DNA from: an uncultured Anaerolineae bacterium
GTDB lineage: Bacteria > Chloroflexota > Anaerolineae > Aggregatilineales > Phototrophicaceae
Length of the DNA: 64,000 bases
Assembly (NCBI GenBank): GCA_937922795.1
Contig: CALAJK010000026.1
Coordinates: 44,227 to 108,226, forward strand
Direction: 5' to 3'
The stretch's first letter is position 1. Every line of letters begins with the position of its first letter. Of the stretch, positions 36,042 to 46,612 are shown in pieces. The position numbers and the translations under genes are program-made. The notes under the pieces are model-generated. The model worked only from the letters and a program-made list of their open reading frames with translations, did not search any database and was not told the origin of the DNA.

Positions 36042-36076
36042 GATGCTTGTTCGTGACGCTGAAGGGAGCCGGCAGC

Positions 36077-36706
36077 ATGGATGATGTTGGACGCGACGAC
36101 CTGGACGATCTGCTGGATGACGACGACATCGAGGCTTACTGCGTCCGCTGCCGTCACACGGTCGTGATGGAAGACCCGCAGCCGGTGTGGACGCGCCAGG
36201 GGCTGCCCGCCATGCGCGGCGACTGCCCTGACTGCGGCGGCGCGGTCTTTCGCCTGGGGCGGACGGCGGCGCACAGCCGCGAGGCGCGCCCGGCGGCGGT
36301 GCAGGTGGCGGCGCGCACCCGCGCCCGGCTGGCGCAGGACACCGCTTACATCGCCTTTGCAGACACTGACGCGGTGCACGCCGAACAGCTAGCCGATGAC
36401 CTGCAGAAGGCGGGCATCGCCGCCTGGCTGCACGAAGCCGCGACGTCGTCGGTGCACTGGGCCGGCGGCGTCCACCCGGCGCTGACTGAATGCGCCCGGC
36501 TGGTGCTGCTGCTGTCGCCGGCGGCGCTGGCGGACGCCGGCGTGACCGGAGCCTGGCAGTTCTTCAAAGCCAAGGGCAAGCCGGTGATCATCGCCCAGCT
36601 AGAGGCGGTCGAGCCGCCGGACGCCCTGCGGCGCAGCCCGCGCTTCGATCTGGCCGGGGATTACAAGACGGCCTTCCGCCAGTTGGTCGGGGCGCTGGCG
36701 GGGTAG
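36077..36706 (+). CDS. zinc-ribbon (DUF5679-like) + TIR domain protein
   Basis: EAYCVRCRHTVVMEDPQPVWTRQGLPAMRGDCPDCGGAVFRLG ribbon; TIR-like AYIAFADTDAVHAEQLADDLQKAGIAAWLHE ... ALTECARLVLLLSPAALADAGVTGAWQFFKAKGKPVIIAQL. Confidence 0.7.
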   Translation: MDDVGRDDLDDLLDDDDIEAYCVRCRHTVVMEDPQPVWTRQGLPAMRGDCPDCGGAVFRLGRTAAHSREARPAAVQVAARTRARLAQDTAYIAFADTDAVHAEQLADDLQKAGIAAWLHEAATSSVHWAGGVHPALTECARLVLLLSPAALADAGVTGAWQFFKAKGKPVIIAQLEAVEPPDALRRSPRFDLAGDYKTAFRQLVGALAG

Positions 36707-36713
36707 CGGCGCG

Positions 36714-38525
36714 TCAGAGGTTCAGCGACTCCAGGTGGACCGGGCCGGTGCGCTTGCGGTGCTTGACCACCCGGTACATCAGGTTGAAGTCCGTCCGTCC
36801 GCGCGTCTTGCGCGGCGGCAGCGGTTCACATTCGTAGAAGGCCTCGACGCGCTCGAACGTGGCCGGGCTGATGAGGACTTCGCCGGGCTGAGCGTTCTCC
36901 TGCAGCAGCTTGCTCAGCTCCATCGCGTCCCCCAGGGCGGTGAACTCGCGCCGGTCGTGGCTGCCGACGTTGCCCAGCACCGCCATGCCGGTGTGCACGC
37001 CGATGCCGTAGAACAGCCGCTGCTCCGGCGGCAGGATCTCGTGCAGGGCGAACAGGTCGTACATCATGCTCATGGCGGCGCGCACTGCCCGCACCGGATG
37101 GTCGTCCTGGGGATTGAACTGGGTGTTGAACAGGCCGGTCGCGGCGTCGCCCATGTACTTGTCCACCACGCCGTCGTATAGGTTGATCGCGTCGCTCGAC
37201 AGGCTCATGTAGCGGTTGATGATCTCCATCAACAGCTCGGGGTCGAGCCGTTCGCTGAAGCTGGTGAAGCCGCGCACGTCGCAGTGCAGCACGCTGATCT
37301 CGCGCTCCTCGCCGGTGATGTCGAACACGTCGGCGCTGCGGATGTTCTCCACCAGGGCGGTCGGCAGGTAGCGGCTGGCCAAGCCGAGCTGGGCTTCGCG
37401 CCGCCGCACCTCGGTTTTGTCGTCCAGCACGATGACCACGCTCTGGCCGGCGCTGTCGCGGTCGCGCAGCGGGCTGAGCATCAGGTTCCAGTAGAACTCC
37501 CACAGGCCGCCCGGGGGCGGCTCGACCTCTAACCGCCGCGGCGCGCCATCCCGCCGCACCTGCTGCAGGGCTTCATCGAAGGCGGGATCAAGGGGCGGCA
37601 GCACGTCGGCCAGCGGTTGGCCGGTTATCTGTTCAGCCGGCAGGCCGATCATGTGGGCGGCGGCGGCGTTGCACAGCGTCACCACATCGTCATGGTTGAG
37701 GGTGATGACGCCGCTGGCGATGGACGAGAAGATGTTGTCCATCAGGTCGCGGACTTCGGTCACCTGGGCGAGCTGCGCTTTGACCGAATCGAACAGACGG
37801 GCGTTCTCGATGGCCACCGCCGCCTGGTGGGCGAAAGCGGTCAGCAGGTTCAGCTCGTGCTGCTTGAACACGCCCACCATGATGCGGTTGTCGCAGTACA
37901 CCACGCCGATAGTCTCGCCGCGGACGTTCAGCGGCACAGCCAGGATGCTGCGCAGCTGCATGCCGGCGATGCTCTGCTGCCCCTGAAAACGCGCGTCCTG
38001 GCTGGCGTTGTCGGTCAGGACGGCTTCGCCGGTGCTGGCGACCTGGTTGACGATGGTGCGGCTGACGGTGAATTCGCTCCGGCTGAGCTGTTCGCGGTCC
38101 AGGCCGCGCGCCACCCGGTACTCAAACTCGCCGGTGTCGCGGTTTTTCAGCACGATATAGCCGCGTTCAGCGCCGGTTAGGTGGATGACGGTGTCCATCA
38201 CCTGGTTCAGCACTTCCGCCGGGTCGAGCGAGGAGTTGATCAGCCCGGCGGTTTCGGCCAGCGCCCGCAGCTGTCCCAGTTCGATCAGCATGCCGCCGAG
38301 CGCGTTGGCCAGCTTATCGAGGTCGGTTTTAAGCTGCCACAGCCCCTCCAGCGCGCCGGTGGGCAGGTTCATGCCGCGCTGACGCAGCACGTCGCGCTGA
38401 GCCCGCAGCACTTCCACCAGGTCATTGATGCGCTGGCTGATCTGCCGCATCTGCACATGGGCGGCGGCCTGCGGCGCGCGCATGCGGGCTGTACTCTCCT
38501 CGTTGAAATTCGTTCCGTCGCTCAT
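36714..38525 (-). CDS. GAF-PAS-class III adenylate/guanylate cyclase domain protein (metal-binding half)
   Basis: GAF ...LTGAERGYIVLKN..., PAS, cyclase ISVLHCDVRGFTSFSERLDP, VVDKYMGDAATGLFN, EFTALGDAMELSKLLQE; ATGA overlap with upstream gene. Confidence 0.88.
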   Translation of the reverse strand: MSDGTNFNEESTARMRAPQAAAHVQMRQISQRINDLVEVLRAQRDVLRQRGMNLPTGALEGLWQLKTDLDKLANALGGMLIELGQLRALAETAGLINSSLDPAEVLNQVMDTVIHLTGAERGYIVLKNRDTGEFEYRVARGLDREQLSRSEFTVSRTIVNQVASTGEAVLTDNASQDARFQGQQSIAGMQLRSILAVPLNVRGETIGVVYCDNRIMVGVFKQHELNLLTAFAHQAAVAIENARLFDSVKAQLAQVTEVRDLMDNIFSSIASGVITLNHDDVVTLCNAAAAHMIGLPAEQITGQPLADVLPPLDPAFDEALQQVRRDGAPRRLEVEPPPGGLWEFYWNLMLSPLRDRDSAGQSVVIVLDDKTEVRRREAQLGLASRYLPTALVENIRSADVFDITGEEREISVLHCDVRGFTSFSERLDPELLMEIINRYMSLSSDAINLYDGVVDKYMGDAATGLFNTQFNPQDDHPVRAVRAAMSMMYDLFALHEILPPEQRLFYGIGVHTGMAVLGNVGSHDRREFTALGDAMELSKLLQENAQPGEVLISPATFERVEAFYECEPLPPRKTRGRTDFNLMYRVVKHRKRTGPVHLESLNL

Positions 38526-40294
38526 GCCGATTTGAACACCTCGTAGATCGGCGTCGCCTGCTGGCGGCCTTTGGCTTTGATCGGCTCACGCGGCTCGCAG
38601 ACGATGCCCGCCGGCCAGCCGCCCAGCCCGGACTGGAGATGCTGACCGGCGGCGTCGCTGATGATGATCTGGCCGGGTTGGGCGTTCTCCAGCAGGCGGT
38701 GCGCCAGGTTGATCGTATCGCCCAGGGCGGTGAAGTCGCGGCGCAGCGGACTGCCGACGTTGCCCAGCGTGGCCACGCCGGTGTGGATGCCGACGCGGTA
38801 AAGGTGGGTATCCGGCGGCAGCCCCTGCTGCGCGTAGAAGGCGGCGAACGCCTCGCGCAGCGCCAGCGCCGCCCGCACCGCCATCAGGGCATGGTTGGCC
38901 ATCGGGTTCAGCTGGCTGTTGAACAATGCCATCAGCTCCGTGCCCATGTACTTGTCGATCACGCCGTTGTGGTCATGGATGCAGTCGGTCGCCACTGTGA
39001 AATGGGCGTTGAGCACCTCCATGATCTGGCCGGGGCGCAGATCGGGCGGGAAGGTCGCCAGCGGGCGCACATCCACGAACATGCAGGTGACCTCGCGGCG
39101 TTCGCCGCCCAGCGCCAGTTGGGCGATCTGGTGGATGTTCTCGACCAGCGCCGGCGGCAGATAGCGGCGCAGGATGTTCAGCTTGTGCTCGCGCTCCCGC
39201 TGTTCGGTTAGGTCGTCCAGCACGATGGCGACGCCCTGCGTCCGCCCTTGTGAATCCTTCAACGGGCTGAGGTTGAAGCTGAGCACCCGCCGTCCGCGCT
39301 CCGGCACGTCCAGTTCGGTCTCGAGCTTCTCGCTCTGACTGCGCTCCCGCACCCGGTGCAGATGGTCGGTGAAGTCTGGACTGAGGCGCGGCAGCGCCGC
39401 CGCCAGCGGCTGGCCGATGGCAGCCTCCGGGGCGATCCCCAGGATGTCGCCCGCGGCCGGGTTGAAGGTCGTCACCCGGTCGGCGGCATCGGCGGTGATG
39501 ACGCCGCTGCCGATCGAGTCGAAAACGTTCGCCATCAGCTCTTTGATCGCGGTCGTCTCCGCCAGGATGGCCTGCACGCGGGCGAACAACCGGGCGTTTT
39601 CGATGGCGACCGCCGCCTGGTTGGCGAAGGATACCAGCAGCTTCTCCTCGCGGGCGGTGAAGACGCCGGAGCGCAGGCGGTTGTCCACGTACAGCGCGCC
39701 GATCACCGTGCCCTTGTAGGTCAGCGGCACGCACACTACCGACCGCAGCGACAGCTGCGCGATGCTCGTCTGATTTTGTATCCGCGGATCTTTGTAGGCG
39801 TTGTCAGTCCGCAGCGGCCGGCCAGTCGTCAGCACTTCTTGCAAGATGGTGGTGCTGCCCTGGAACCCTAGGCCGGCGTCGGGGTTCTCCGGATCGCGCA
39901 CCACCCGCACCGCCAGCGATTGGTCGGTTGGGTTGAGCAGGATGAGGTAACCGCGTTCGGCGCCCGTCAGCCGGATGACCTCGTCCATAGCGCGCGCCAG
40001 GACGACTTCAAGGTCAAGCGATGAGTTGATGAGAGCCGTGGTCTCGGTCAGGGCGCGGAGCTGGCTCAGTTCGGTCTGCTCGCCCTGAAGCTGCTGCCTC
40101 AGGCTGGACAGGTCAGCTTCGACCTGGGCCACGCTCTGAAGCGCGCCCGGCGGCAGCCCCATGCCGCGTATGCGCAGCAGTTCTTGCTGCCGCTGCAGCG
40201 CGGCGGTGACCTCTTGCGCCGAGGCGCACAAGCGTTCTAGCTCCGCCATCGGGTTGAACTCAGACATCGATGAATGTGATCTCGTATGCGCCAA
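38522..40294 (-). CDS. GAF-PAS-class III adenylate/guanylate cyclase domain protein (substrate/transition-state half)
   Basis: GAF LTGAERGYLILLN, PAS, cyclase VTCMFVDVRPLATFPPDL, VIDKYMGTELMALFN, DFTALGDTINLAHRLLE. Confidence 0.88.
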   Translation of the reverse strand: MAHTRSHSSMSEFNPMAELERLCASAQEVTAALQRQQELLRIRGMGLPPGALQSVAQVEADLSSLRQQLQGEQTELSQLRALTETTALINSSLDLEVVLARAMDEVIRLTGAERGYLILLNPTDQSLAVRVVRDPENPDAGLGFQGSTTILQEVLTTGRPLRTDNAYKDPRIQNQTSIAQLSLRSVVCVPLTYKGTVIGALYVDNRLRSGVFTAREEKLLVSFANQAAVAIENARLFARVQAILAETTAIKELMANVFDSIGSGVITADAADRVTTFNPAAGDILGIAPEAAIGQPLAAALPRLSPDFTDHLHRVRERSQSEKLETELDVPERGRRVLSFNLSPLKDSQGRTQGVAIVLDDLTEQREREHKLNILRRYLPPALVENIHQIAQLALGGERREVTCMFVDVRPLATFPPDLRPGQIMEVLNAHFTVATDCIHDHNGVIDKYMGTELMALFNSQLNPMANHALMAVRAALALREAFAAFYAQQGLPPDTHLYRVGIHTGVATLGNVGSPLRRDFTALGDTINLAHRLLENAQPGQIIISDAAGQHLQSGLGGWPAGIVCEPREPIKAKGRQQATPIYEVFKSA

Positions 40295-40790: not shown

Positions 40791-41058
40791 TTCATTAGAA
40801 CAACGCGGTGGATGCTTGTGCCCTCACGCTAAATCTCCCCCTCAGGAAGAGGGGCTTTTAAGAACCTGTCCGCACCCCCGTCGCCCTGGGGGACAAGAGC
40901 TGGGGTGCTGAGGACGTTCTGGAGTCTCTTCCGCGCTGTTGTGTAGGGCTGCCGCGTTTAGCGTTCGTCTGCAAAACGTCAGGTTTGTTAGGCAGCCGCC
41001 AGCGGGCTGGGGTTATAATGCATGTGTTCAGCCGGCTCATGATTTCGAGGGCATCAGA

Positions 41059-43734
41059 GTGCGTATCGGTTTCTATCTGCTGTATGCGGCGCGCACGCTG
41101 CGGCGCAGCGGCCACTGGACGACGTTCGCCGTCTTCTGCGTGGCGACCGGCGTGGCCACCGTGGTCGCGCTGCGCAGCTTGGGGCTGGCAATCAGCGACT
41201 CGCTGCTGACCAACGTGCGCCAGTTCAACCACGGCGACATCAACATCAGCCAGATCTACAACTTCGGCCCGTTCGCTTTCACCATCCACCGCGGAGGCGA
41301 CGAACGGTCAGTCTACACGCCCGGCCAGGTGGAGCGGGTGCGCCAGTGGATCACGGCGCGCGGCGGCCGCATGACCGCCTATACCGCCCTCAACAACATC
41401 CAGATCATCCCGGCCGGGCAGGAGTTCACGCCGCGCCCGCAGTTCGCCACTTCGTTCCTGATCGACCCGCAGACGTTCGCCATCGCCGCCGACATCCGGG
41501 CGATCGACCCGCCGGGCGCGCCGCTGGCTGATCTGTTCCACGGCGGGCGCGAGGTGGTCATCAGCTGGAACCTGGCCGAGGCCAACGGGCTGAAAGTGGG
41601 CGATCAGGTGCTGGCCAGCGGCGCGGCCGAGCCGTTCACCGTGACCGGCATCGTGCCCACCGAAGCTGAGGCCAGCATCAACAACATCTTCGCCTCGTTC
41701 TTCGGCTTCGCCTATTTCGACGCGGCTCAAGCTGGGGCGCTGCAGCTCAGCCCGCTGCCGAACACCATCGGGATCGTGCTGCCCGACGGCGCTTCCGCCG
41801 AGGCGATCGAGGCCGCGGCGCAGGAGGTGAGCCGGCTCGTGCCCGTCCGCGAGCTGACCGCCACGCCGTCGCTCATCAACCGCAACCGCGAGCTGGCCGA
41901 CATGATCGGCCGCTTCATCGTCACGCTGGGGTTGGGCGCCATGCTGATCGGCGGCGTGGGCATCATGAATACCATGCTGGTGCTGGTGCGCCGGCGGACG
42001 GTCGAGATCGCCGCCCTCAAGACGTTCGGCCTCAAGGGCGGCCAGGTGGCGGCGCTGTTCGCCGCTGAGGCGCTGCTGCTGGCGCTGGCCGGCGCGGCGC
42101 TGGGCATCGCGGTGGGCGTGCTGCTCAGCCGGGCGGTGAACGCTTACGGCGAGGCGTTCTTGCAGCAGCGGCTGCCCTGGCGAGTGTACCCGGAGGCCAT
42201 CGTCTACGGGCTGGTGTTGGGGCTGGTGGTGACGCTGGTGTTCGGCGTGCTGCCGGCGCTGACGGCGGCGCGGGTGCGGCCGGGGATCATCCTGCGGCCG
42301 AACGAGGCGGCTGCCGCCCGCGCCGGTCTGCTGCCCGGCCTGCTGGCCATCGTCGTCGTAGTGCTGTCGCTGGGGGTCATCGCCGGCCAGATCCTGGGGC
42401 CGGTCGTGGTGCAGGCGCTGGACGAGCGCGCGCCCAACCCCCTGCTGCTGGGGATCGCCGGCGTGGCGGCGGCGCTGCTCATCCTGGCAGCGCTCAACGG
42501 CCTGCTGTGGCTGCTGGTGTGGGCCATCGGCAAGCTGCCGGCACTGGGCAGCGTGGATCTGCGGCTGGCGCTGGCCAACCTGACCACCCGACGGGCGCGC
42601 ACCGCCACCACCCTGCTGGCGCTGACGGCCGGCATGTTCGCGCTCAGCAGCATCACCTTCTTCGGGTTGGGCGCGCGGGAGATCGTGCGCTTCCAGTTCG
42701 CCGAGACGCTGGGCGGCAACATCGTCGCTGTGCCGCTGCTGCCGGAGGAGATCGGCAACCCACTGCTCGACTTGCAGCTCGATGGCCTGGAAGGCGTCGA
42801 ATCGCGCACGCGGCTGCGCTTCGTCACCGGCCGCCTGATGACCGTGGATGACCAGCCGGTCGAAATTGAAGATCGAGCGCCGGGCGTGCCGCTGATCATC
42901 CTGTCCCGCGACACAACCAACCCTGACCTGCGCAGCGGCCCGCTGCTGGCCGGGCGCGACCTGACGCCCGAAGACCGGGGGCGCAACGTGATCGTGCTGT
43001 CCGAACAGACGGCGCTGGAGAGCGCCATCGAGGGCTTCTCCAGCCTGGACGAGCTGGGGATCGGCGTCGGCTCGACGGTGGGCGTGCGGATCGCCGGCCG
43101 GGTGCTGCCGTTCGAGGTGGTGGGCATCGTCGGCAACGCCAACGGCTTCACGCCCAACCCGGCCAGCGCCTATCTGCCGCCCGACGTGCCCGGCGTGATG
43201 GCCACGCGCACCGTCACCGTGGCGCAGGTGCGATCCGACCAGGTGGACGACGTGCTGCGCTTCCTATCGCGCGTGCCGCTGGTGTTCGCCGTGGATGTGG
43301 CCTTCGCCGACGGCCTGATGGAGCGCCTGATCGCCCAGCTCAGCGCCATCCCGACGGTGGTCGGGCTGCTGTCGCTGCTGGCGGCGGCGGTCATCATGGC
43401 CAATTCGGTGGCGCTGGCCACCCTGGAACGCCGCCAGCAGATCGGCGTGCTGAAGGCGGTCGGTCTGAAGCGCCGGCGCGTGCTGGGCGTGATGCTGCTG
43501 GAGAACACGCTCATCGGCCTGCTCGGCTCGGCGCTGGGCATCGCCATCAGCGTGGCGGGCGTCTCGCTGATGACGACCATCGGCACCGGCATCACCATCC
43601 CCATCCCGTCGAACGCCGCCGGCATCGCCCTGCTGCTGGTGGCGGCGTCGGTGGTCATCGCCTGGGCGGCCACGTTCCTCAGCGCCCGGACGGCGATCAG
43701 CGAGCGCGTGGCCGCGGTGCTGCACTACGAATGA
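41059..43734 (+). CDS. ABC transporter permease, FtsX/MacB type (two FtsX modules)
   Basis: VRIGFYLLYAARTLRRSG; GLGAMLIGGVGIMNTMLVLVRRRTVEIAALKTFGLKGGQ and MANSVALATLERRQQIGVLKAVGLKRRRVLGVMLLENTLIGLLG; GTG start at 41059 (ORF 40939). Confidence 0.9.
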   Translation: MRIGFYLLYAARTLRRSGHWTTFAVFCVATGVATVVALRSLGLAISDSLLTNVRQFNHGDINISQIYNFGPFAFTIHRGGDERSVYTPGQVERVRQWITARGGRMTAYTALNNIQIIPAGQEFTPRPQFATSFLIDPQTFAIAADIRAIDPPGAPLADLFHGGREVVISWNLAEANGLKVGDQVLASGAAEPFTVTGIVPTEAEASINNIFASFFGFAYFDAAQAGALQLSPLPNTIGIVLPDGASAEAIEAAAQEVSRLVPVRELTATPSLINRNRELADMIGRFIVTLGLGAMLIGGVGIMNTMLVLVRRRTVEIAALKTFGLKGGQVAALFAAEALLLALAGAALGIAVGVLLSRAVNAYGEAFLQQRLPWRVYPEAIVYGLVLGLVVTLVFGVLPALTAARVRPGIILRPNEAAAARAGLLPGLLAIVVVVLSLGVIAGQILGPVVVQALDERAPNPLLLGIAGVAAALLILAALNGLLWLLVWAIGKLPALGSVDLRLALANLTTRRARTATTLLALTAGMFALSSITFFGLGAREIVRFQFAETLGGNIVAVPLLPEEIGNPLLDLQLDGLEGVESRTRLRFVTGRLMTVDDQPVEIEDRAPGVPLIILSRDTTNPDLRSGPLLAGRDLTPEDRGRNVIVLSEQTALESAIEGFSSLDELGIGVGSTVGVRIAGRVLPFEVVGIVGNANGFTPNPASAYLPPDVPGVMATRTVTVAQVRSDQVDDVLRFLSRVPLVFAVDVAFADGLMERLIAQLSAIPTVVGLLSLLAAAVIMANSVALATLERRQQIGVLKAVGLKRRRVLGVMLLENTLIGLLGSALGIAISVAGVSLMTTIGTGITIPIPSNAAGIALLLVAASVVIAWAATFLSARTAISERVAAVLHYE

Positions 43735-43858
43735 CCGGCCAGCGCCGGCGCAACCTGCCCGCCCAGAACTGCGTACAGGGTACAATGAAGCAGGCTAGGC
43801 GGCATCATCGCGTCGGCTGATCATCGCGCATCTGTCTTGCAACTGGTAGGTTCTGAGC

Positions 43859-46612
43859 ATGAATCTGCTGTACTACTTACGCTACGCCGCCCGCAATCTG
43901 TGGCGCAGTCGGCGCTGGTCAACTTTCGCCATCTTCTCGGTGGCGGCGGGCGTGGCGACCGTGGTCGCGCTGCGCAGCCTGGGCTTGGCCATCGGCGACG
44001 CGCTCACCAGCAACGTGCGCGGCAGCAACCGCGGCGACATCACGCTGGTCTTGGAGAGCAATATCTTCTTCAGCTTCGGCGATCCCGACGCCCGCGCCGC
44101 CTTCACGCCGGCACAGATCGATCGCGTCCGCCGCTGGGCGCAGGAGCGCGGTGGACGGGCGACCGCTTACACCACCACCGGCAACATTCAGATCAGCTCG
44201 CAGGATTACGTGACCGCCGGCCGGCCGCAGTTCATCACCTCCATCTTCATCGACCCGCGTACCTTCCCACCGACGGATGACCTGTTCACGCTCGACCCGC
44301 CGGGCGCGCGCCTGGGCGATCTGTTCACCGGCGGCAACGAGGTGGTCATCAGCCAGAACCTGGCCGCCTCGCAGAACATCCGCGTGGGCGACCGGGTGCG
44401 GGTCAGCGGCACGACCGAGGAATTCACCGTCAAGGGCATCATCGCCACCGATGTGCAGGCCGGGCTGCGCGACATGATCGCCGCCTTCTTCGGCTTCGCC
44501 TTCTTCAGCCTGGACTCGGCGGCCGTCCTGCCCGCGCCGGAAAACCCGAACACCATCAGCCTGACGCTGGCCGACAACACGCCGCCGGAGACAGTCACCC
44601 AGCTCGCCAGACAGCTGAGCGCGCTGGTCGCCGACGCCGATGGGCCGGCGCCGCGCTTCGTGCGCACCGTGCCCGACCTGCTGCGTGAGAACCAGAACCT
44701 GACCGACGTGTTGGGCAGCTTCATCGTGGTGCTGGGGCTGGGCGCGCTGCTGCTTGGGGGCGTGGGCATCATCAATACCATGCTGGTAATGGTGGGCCGG
44801 CGCACCGAGGAGATCGCCGCGCTCAAGACCTTCGGCCTGAAAGCCCGCCAGATCGCGGCCATGTTCCTGGCGGAGGCCTTCTTGATGGGGCTGGCCGGCA
44901 GCCTGCTGGGCAGCGTCTTCGGCGTGCTGCTCAGCAGCCTAGCCAACGCCTACGGCCAGATGCTCATCCAGCAGCCGCTGGTCTGGCGCGTCTACCCGGA
45001 AGCCATCCTGTTCGGCCTGGCGCTGGGCATGGTGGTGACGCTGGTGTTCGGTGTGCTGCCGGTGCTGACGGCCGTGCGCGTGCGCCCCAACATCATCCTG
45101 CGCCCCAACGAAACCCACATCCCGCGCGCCGGCTGTTTGTCGTCGCTGTTCGCGCTGCTGTTCGTGGTGCTGGCGGTCGGGCTGATCGCCGGGCAGATGC
45201 TGGCGCCCGCCTTCCGGGTGGCGCGCGGGCAGCTCATCAACGCCTACATCACCGGCATCATCGGCGTGGCCGTCACCCTGCTCATCCTGGGGCTGCTGAT
45301 CGGGCTGCTGTGGGTGGTAGTGTGGCTGATCGGTAAGCTGCCCTCCTTCGGCAGCGTGGATCTGCGGCTGGCGCTGCGCAACCTGGCCACCCGCCGCACG
45401 CGCACCGCCACCACGCTGCTGGCGCTCAGCGCCGGCATGTTCGCGCTCAGCAGCATCTCGTTCTTCGGCGCTGGCATGCGCGAAATCGTCCAGTTCACGC
45501 TCAGCGAGGCCTTCGGCGGCAACGTGCTGATCTTCCCGGTGCTGCCGCCCATCCTGGCCAACCCGCTGATCGACAGCAAGCTGAATAGCCTCGAAGGAGT
45601 GGAGTACCGCACGCGCTTCATGCAGTTCCAGGGGGAGATCAAATGGGTGGACGGCGTCTCGCTGGCCGACCGCGGCGCGCTCAGTCAAGCCGAGGTCGAA
45701 CGCCAGATCCGCGAGGCCGGCCGCCAGCGCGACTTCGAGCGCGTGCAGCGGTTGGCCGCCGAGTTCGACCTGCGGCCGTATGTGCAGGTGGTCATCCGCG
45801 ATACCAACAATCCCAATCTGACCAGCGGCGAGCTGACCGCCGGGCGCGACATCACCCCGGCCGACCGCGGCCAGCGGGTGGCGGTGGTCAAGCTCAAACC
45901 GGCGGTTCAGCGGCTGAACCTCGCCGTCGGCTCGACCATCGGCGTCCAGATCAACGACCAGGTCTACGATTTTGAAGTGGTCGGGTTGATGCCCGATGTC
46001 GAGGACACCGGCAGCATCCAGTCGTCGATCGTGTTCGGCGATGTGATCATCCCGGCTGGCTCGCTGGAGCGCGTGACGCCCAACTTCCAGATCACGGTCG
46101 CCCAGATCCAGCCAGAGCACCTCAACCGCGGGTTGGTCGAACTGTCGGCGCTGCCGCTGGTCTTCTCGTTCGACATCAGCTTCATCGACGGGATGCTCAG
46201 CCGCTTCATCAGCCAGATGAGCGCCATCCCCATCCTGGTCGGGCTGCTGTCGCTGCTGGCGGCGGCGGTCATCATGACCAACACGGTCGCGCTGTCCATG
46301 CTGGAGCGGCGGCGGCAGATCGGCATCCTGAAGGCCGTCGGGCTGAAAGGGCGGCGCGTGCTGAGCGTGATGCTGCTGGAGAACACGCTCGTCAGCCTGC
46401 TGGGCGGGCTGCTGGGCATCGGCCTCAGTTCGCTGGGCGTGGCGTTGATGACCCGCTTCGGCCTGAATGTGACCATGCTCGTCCCGACCGACGCGCTGCC
46501 GATCGCCATCGCGCTGGTCATTGCGGCCATCGTCATCGCCTGGTTGGCCACGCTGCTCAGCGCCCGCGCCATCCTGGGCGAGCGCGTGACCAACGTGCTG
46601 CGCTACGAATGA
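43859..46612 (+). CDS. ABC transporter permease, FtsX/MacB type, tandem paralogue
   Basis: GLGALLLGGVGIINTMLVMVGRRTEEIAALKTFGLKARQ; MTNTVALSMLERRRQIGILKAVGLKGRRVLSVMLLENTLVSLLG. Confidence 0.92.
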   Translation: MNLLYYLRYAARNLWRSRRWSTFAIFSVAAGVATVVALRSLGLAIGDALTSNVRGSNRGDITLVLESNIFFSFGDPDARAAFTPAQIDRVRRWAQERGGRATAYTTTGNIQISSQDYVTAGRPQFITSIFIDPRTFPPTDDLFTLDPPGARLGDLFTGGNEVVISQNLAASQNIRVGDRVRVSGTTEEFTVKGIIATDVQAGLRDMIAAFFGFAFFSLDSAAVLPAPENPNTISLTLADNTPPETVTQLARQLSALVADADGPAPRFVRTVPDLLRENQNLTDVLGSFIVVLGLGALLLGGVGIINTMLVMVGRRTEEIAALKTFGLKARQIAAMFLAEAFLMGLAGSLLGSVFGVLLSSLANAYGQMLIQQPLVWRVYPEAILFGLALGMVVTLVFGVLPVLTAVRVRPNIILRPNETHIPRAGCLSSLFALLFVVLAVGLIAGQMLAPAFRVARGQLINAYITGIIGVAVTLLILGLLIGLLWVVVWLIGKLPSFGSVDLRLALRNLATRRTRTATTLLALSAGMFALSSISFFGAGMREIVQFTLSEAFGGNVLIFPVLPPILANPLIDSKLNSLEGVEYRTRFMQFQGEIKWVDGVSLADRGALSQAEVERQIREAGRQRDFERVQRLAAEFDLRPYVQVVIRDTNNPNLTSGELTAGRDITPADRGQRVAVVKLKPAVQRLNLAVGSTIGVQINDQVYDFEVVGLMPDVEDTGSIQSSIVFGDVIIPAGSLERVTPNFQITVAQIQPEHLNRGLVELSALPLVFSFDISFIDGMLSRFISQMSAIPILVGLLSLLAAAVIMTNTVALSMLERRRQIGILKAVGLKGRRVLSVMLLENTLVSLLGGLLGIGLSSLGVALMTRFGLNVTMLVPTDALPIAIALVIAAIVIAWLATLLSARAILGERVTNVLRYE

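Follow-up and report, generated by a model that had tools for sequence, protein, structure and literature searches.

The locus described here raises the question of how two adjacent cyclase genes are to be understood when neither of them encodes a complete active site. Both lie on the minus strand of a 64,000-nucleotide stretch of DNA from an uncultured Anaerolineae bacterium, referred to here as the window. The first gene, at 38522..40294, encodes P1, a protein of 590 residues counted from a TTG codon. The true start may lie nine codons downstream, at an in-frame ATG (MSEFNPMAEL...), which would shorten the product to about 581 residues. The second, at 36714..38525, encodes P2 (603 residues), and its start codon lies on the P1 stop codon in an ATGA overlap at 38522..38525. 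When the sequence was rechecked, the open reading frame coordinates, the overlap and all of the motifs quoted in the initial annotation were found to be correct, and its description of the genes as two GAF-PAS-cyclase paralogues is borne out by Pfam, which places GAF, PAS and Guanylate_cyc domains in each protein. Both P1 and P2 score above the curated cut-off for the class III cyclase domain (Guanylate_cyc, PF00211). Pfam finds only these three domains, and no H-NOX haem domain, in P1 and P2, so they do not qualify as a soluble guanylyl cyclase; nor do they qualify as a mammalian transmembrane adenylyl cyclase, which carries two cyclase domains and transmembrane bundles in one polypeptide, since they are the products of separate genes and have GAF-PAS N-termini.

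The ATGA overlap is read here as translational coupling of P1 and P2. The 4-base overlap (with an ATG, GTG or TTG start) is exact in 44 of 85 P1-P2 loci, and the two genes stay adjacent although the flanking genes vary across 83 loci. The commonest neighbouring gene cluster is present in 18 of these 83; there is no conserved neighbourhood beyond the pair, and consequently no functional partner can be proposed from it. A promoter and terminator scan at the P1-P2 locus gave nothing convincing. (Elsewhere in the window, the plus-strand gene at 36047-36706, directly after a fused transaldolase/phosphoglucose isomerase gene, codes for a small protein whose N-terminus matches DUF5679 and whose C-terminus matches TIR_2; at 40939-46612, also on the plus strand and divergent from the cyclase pair, MacB/FtsX-type permeases of about 920-930 residues are encoded by two genes in tandem, each with two FtsX matches.)

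Structures of class III cyclases have indicated that both metal-binding Asp residues of a site come from one chain, while the Asn, the Arg and the phosphate Lys come from the other (PMC2576301, PMC3591389, PMC4174876). The positions compared here, D1, K, D2, T, N and R, correspond to D256, K296, D300, D365, N372 and R376 of Rv1625c. The residues at these positions are D K T T N R in P1 and D K D T E L in P2, compared with D K D T N R in CyaC, an active adenylyl cyclase. In P1, the second metal Asp is replaced by Thr and the K, T, N and R are kept; in P2, both metal Asp residues are kept, Asn is replaced by Glu, and Arg by Leu. These reciprocal losses are exactly those that the initial annotation described. 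A homodimeric bacterial class III cyclase needs all of its site residues in one chain; neither chain is complete, and P1 plus P2 provide one complete set. Taken with the published partition of the site between chains, this residue pattern predicts that a P1-P2 dimer would contain exactly one complete site.

In Foldseek, each chain matches the catalytic domains of the class III cyclases CyaC, CyaB, Cya2 and Rv1625c, with TM-scores of about 0.75-0.87 depending on the target. The AlphaFold models of P1 and P2, each folded as a single chain, are of good confidence across most of the cyclase domain; the arrangement of the domains is not interpreted, because the whole-chain pTM is low (0.37-0.38).

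The pair is not peculiar to the window. Of 40 related genomes, 36 carry both genes, intact and adjacent in 31; in the rest of the 36 the pair is cut by contig ends or, in one genome (G035), fragmented. In this last case (L074:3902-7422) both genes are broken into overlapping ORFs, which suggests frameshifts arising by assembly error or recent decay. A single gene is present in three of the 40, which belong to family f2 of the same order, and one genome (G017) has neither gene at full length. When GTDB contigs were scanned, 80 loci were recovered, some of them already known from the related genomes; all are titled Chloroflexota/Anaerolineae except one labelled Pleurocapsa. (This locus, L130 on JAHHHY010000002.1, is titled Pleurocapsa minor, a cyanobacterium; it carries the pair and is an apparent match to G095:C5, from a genome of the window's family, and the label looks wrong.) Outside the order, searches of the class and phylum gave mainly single-copy homologues. 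After removal of duplicates there are 84 distinct Anaerolineae (Chloroflexota) loci with one P1 and one P2, together with 48 singletons; sampling for pairs was confined to Chloroflexota. (A further locus, L048, is counted apart because of a false third match: L048:979-2835, a GAF-PAS protein without cyclase motifs, was rejected as a P2 and left out of the P2 counts.) All 84 loci are split in the same way, with a metal Asp lost in one chain and Asn/Arg in the other, as required of a heterodimeric class III cyclase. Adjacent pairs in relatives in which both chains are complete would have refuted the heterodimer proposed in the initial annotation; they were looked for, and none was found.

If P1 and P2 form one intact and one dead site, the residues of the former should be fixed and their counterparts in the latter should drift, and this is the pattern seen in the 84 loci. 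Among P1 proteins (n=89), K, N and R are invariant (89/89) and T or S is always present (89/89), so that the Lys plus Thr base-selecting pair of a class IIIb adenylyl cyclase is in place; D2 is found in none (N in 48, T in 26, S in 14, E in 1). Among P2 proteins (n=87, one false match excluded), D1 and D2 are present in 87/87 and R in 0/87, its replacements being L, F, Y, K, I and others (the similar Lys in 8/87). Ten P2 proteins (11%) keep the Asn, so only the loss of Arg is universal in P2. The T of P2 is kept in about 35 of 87, the position varying among A, S, G and T. Decay is not seen at every dead-site position: P1 retains D1 in 49/89 (55%) and P2 retains K in 74/87 (84%). The P2 Lys is replaced by Gln in 13 loci (L118, L128, L129, L134-L136, L138, L139, L144, L149-L151, L155), a further decay step confined to the inactive site.

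Singletons outside the pair clade (n=48) have D1, D2, N and R in 48/48, T or S always, and K in 42/48. (The six exceptions, the phylum-level singletons L188, L189, L191, L192, L194 and L195, have M or A for the base-selecting Lys, with both Asp residues and the Thr, Asn and Arg still in place, and may use a different substrate.) Two additional positions follow the partition of the site: the K1065-equivalent is K or R in 89/89 P1 and mixed in P2, and the R484-equivalent (Gly in this cyclase family) varies in P1 and is almost invariant in both P2 and singletons. By parsimony within the clades, there are 6 changes at the eight intact-site positions, all conservative (T/S and K/R only), and about 60 at dead-site positions (the sum of per-position counts).

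The origin of the pair can be followed in a tree made by a quick search, with the site columns removed. P1 and P2 form sister clades (SH-aLRT support 100 for P1, 98 for P2 and 100 for P1+P2), and complete singletons of families f2, from the same order, and f42 fall just outside the P1+P2 clade. One duplication followed by complementary loss accounts for all of these data: the gene for a complete, homodimeric GAF-PAS cyclase would have been duplicated in tandem at the root of the lineages that carry the pair, within one order of Anaerolineae. The next-best P1 matches in pair-bearing genomes are partial and far weaker, so the ancestral gene seems to have given way to the pair. Distances among P1 proteins correlate with those among P2 proteins (Mantel r 0.84, 0/2000 permutations). 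In close orthologues of both genes dN/dS is about 0.03-0.18 (only close pairs were used; pairwise values are saturated at high divergence), and both cyclase domains are under purifying selection. This selection and the recurrence in 84 loci rule out chance, sequencing error or a pseudogene.

Taken together, these results argue that P1 and P2 very probably constitute an obligate heterodimeric adenylyl cyclase of class III (IIIb-type) in which one site is active and the other dead, although dimerisation and activity are inferred and "obligate" is a deduction from the residues alone. Within a head-to-tail cyclase dimer, P2 would contribute both metal-binding Asp residues, and P1 would contribute the adenine-selecting Lys/Thr together with the Asn/Arg for ribose binding and transition-state stabilisation; the one competent site so formed would convert ATP to cAMP, a product inferred because of the Lys/Thr signature. 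The mirror site, without the P1 metal Asp and without the P2 Asn/Arg, would be dead, like the pocket that binds forskolin in mammalian C1/C2. Equal amounts of P1 and P2 would be maintained by ATGA coupling and permanent adjacency, and the two GAF-PAS modules are inferred to provide signal input. That the heterodimer has exactly one complete site, as first proposed from the window, is supported by the 84-locus conservation, by the published partition and by complementation in Rv1625c, where D300A and R376A, inactive point mutants, restore activity when co-expressed (PMC4821796, citing Guo et al. 2001); it remains a prediction, with no binding or activity data. The genome has five cNMP-binding domain matches, and these proteins are possible effectors. 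(Losses of a similar kind in the genome's other cyclases were considered and rejected, as all three look complete.)

Could P1 and P2 instead both be dead pseudo-cyclases that serve only as GAF-PAS signalling scaffolds? Each chain alone does lack essential residues, and the three other cyclases, being apparently complete, could supply cAMP. However, the intact-site residues are fixed across the 84 loci while their dead-site counterparts drift, and dead enzymes would have no reason to keep exactly one composite site, which makes this explanation very improbable. A heterodimer that is real but not obligate, in which one chain, most likely P2, is weakly active as a homodimer, has in its favour that P2 keeps both Asp residues and usually the Lys. 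Some class III cyclases function with non-canonical residues, and residual homodimer activity of P1 or P2 is therefore not excluded. Against it, P2 Arg and P1 D2 are gone from every sequence, residues that complete singletons never lose, and in Rv1625c the D300A and R376A point mutants are both reported inactive, the D300A construct having no activity by itself (PMC4821796); such activity is considered quite unlikely.

Little credence can be given to a heterodimer that is catalytic with another product (e.g. cGMP) or that is controlled mainly by a dead-site ligand. The variation of the base-selecting Thr of P2 may mean that the dead site has acquired another ligand, but the intact site has P1 Lys and Thr (rarely Ser) at all loci, as in CyaC, whereas in the alignments this Lys position is occupied by Glu in the guanylyl cyclase Cya2 (2w01). 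If the obligate P1-P2 heterodimer is accepted, it is possible, though only as a tentative extension, that two different GAF-PAS sensors feed one shared site as a two-input cAMP switch, with the dead mirror site serving, as its mammalian counterpart does, as an allosteric pocket, and that this holds order-wide.

Bacterial class III cyclases have been described in review as homodimerising (PMC9552081), and a literature search limited to open-licence papers found no description of a natural bacterial heterodimeric one, nor a published example of a bacterial operon split in this way, in agreement with the initial annotation. Eukaryotes are known to have heterodimeric class III cyclases; a natural bacterial one appears to be new, as far as this incomplete literature allows. 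Because a complete, unduplicated homologue persists in close relatives, the pair offers a tractable model of the transition from a homodimeric cyclase to an obligate heterodimer, and of the roles of the dead site and of asymmetric sensory input. These single-copy GAF-PAS cyclases of other Anaerolineae/Chloroflexota (L069-L071, L156-L195) are the closest relatives of P1 and P2 and share their domain order, but have the complete site set in one gene and presumably form a homodimer with two sites.

Among characterized systems, the engineered Rv1625c pair has lost the same two positions, one per chain, and co-expression restores activity (PMC4821796); however, these are laboratory mutants of a natural homodimer, whereas the P1/P2 losses are natural and fixed across the order. 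The fungal rhodopsin cyclases NeoR/RGC1 are likewise obligate heterodimers of separate gene products, but RGC1 and RGC2 retain all cyclisation residues, and their obligate pairing is attributed to other features (PMC8815786). Soluble guanylyl cyclase is an obligate heterodimer from two genes, in which alpha provides the metal Asp residues and beta the Arg and Lys, and its homodimers are inactive because the residues are split between subunits (PMC3591389). Unlike P1/P2, with their GAF-PAS domains and Lys/Thr (ATP-type) signature, it is eukaryotic, H-NOX/NO-regulated and uses GTP. In mammalian transmembrane adenylyl cyclase, C1 provides the metal Asp residues and C2 the substrate-specifying and transition-state residues, leaving one active site and one pseudo-site (PMC4174876); P2 corresponds to C1 and P1 to C2. 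The mammalian domains reside in one membrane polypeptide, whereas P1 and P2 are two separate GAF-PAS proteins of a two-gene operon that arose by an independent duplication. Convergence is the best reading of this likeness as judged from the residues: the C1/C2 arrangement appears to have evolved independently in a bacterial lineage, as two unfused genes that have lost the same residues on the same sides.
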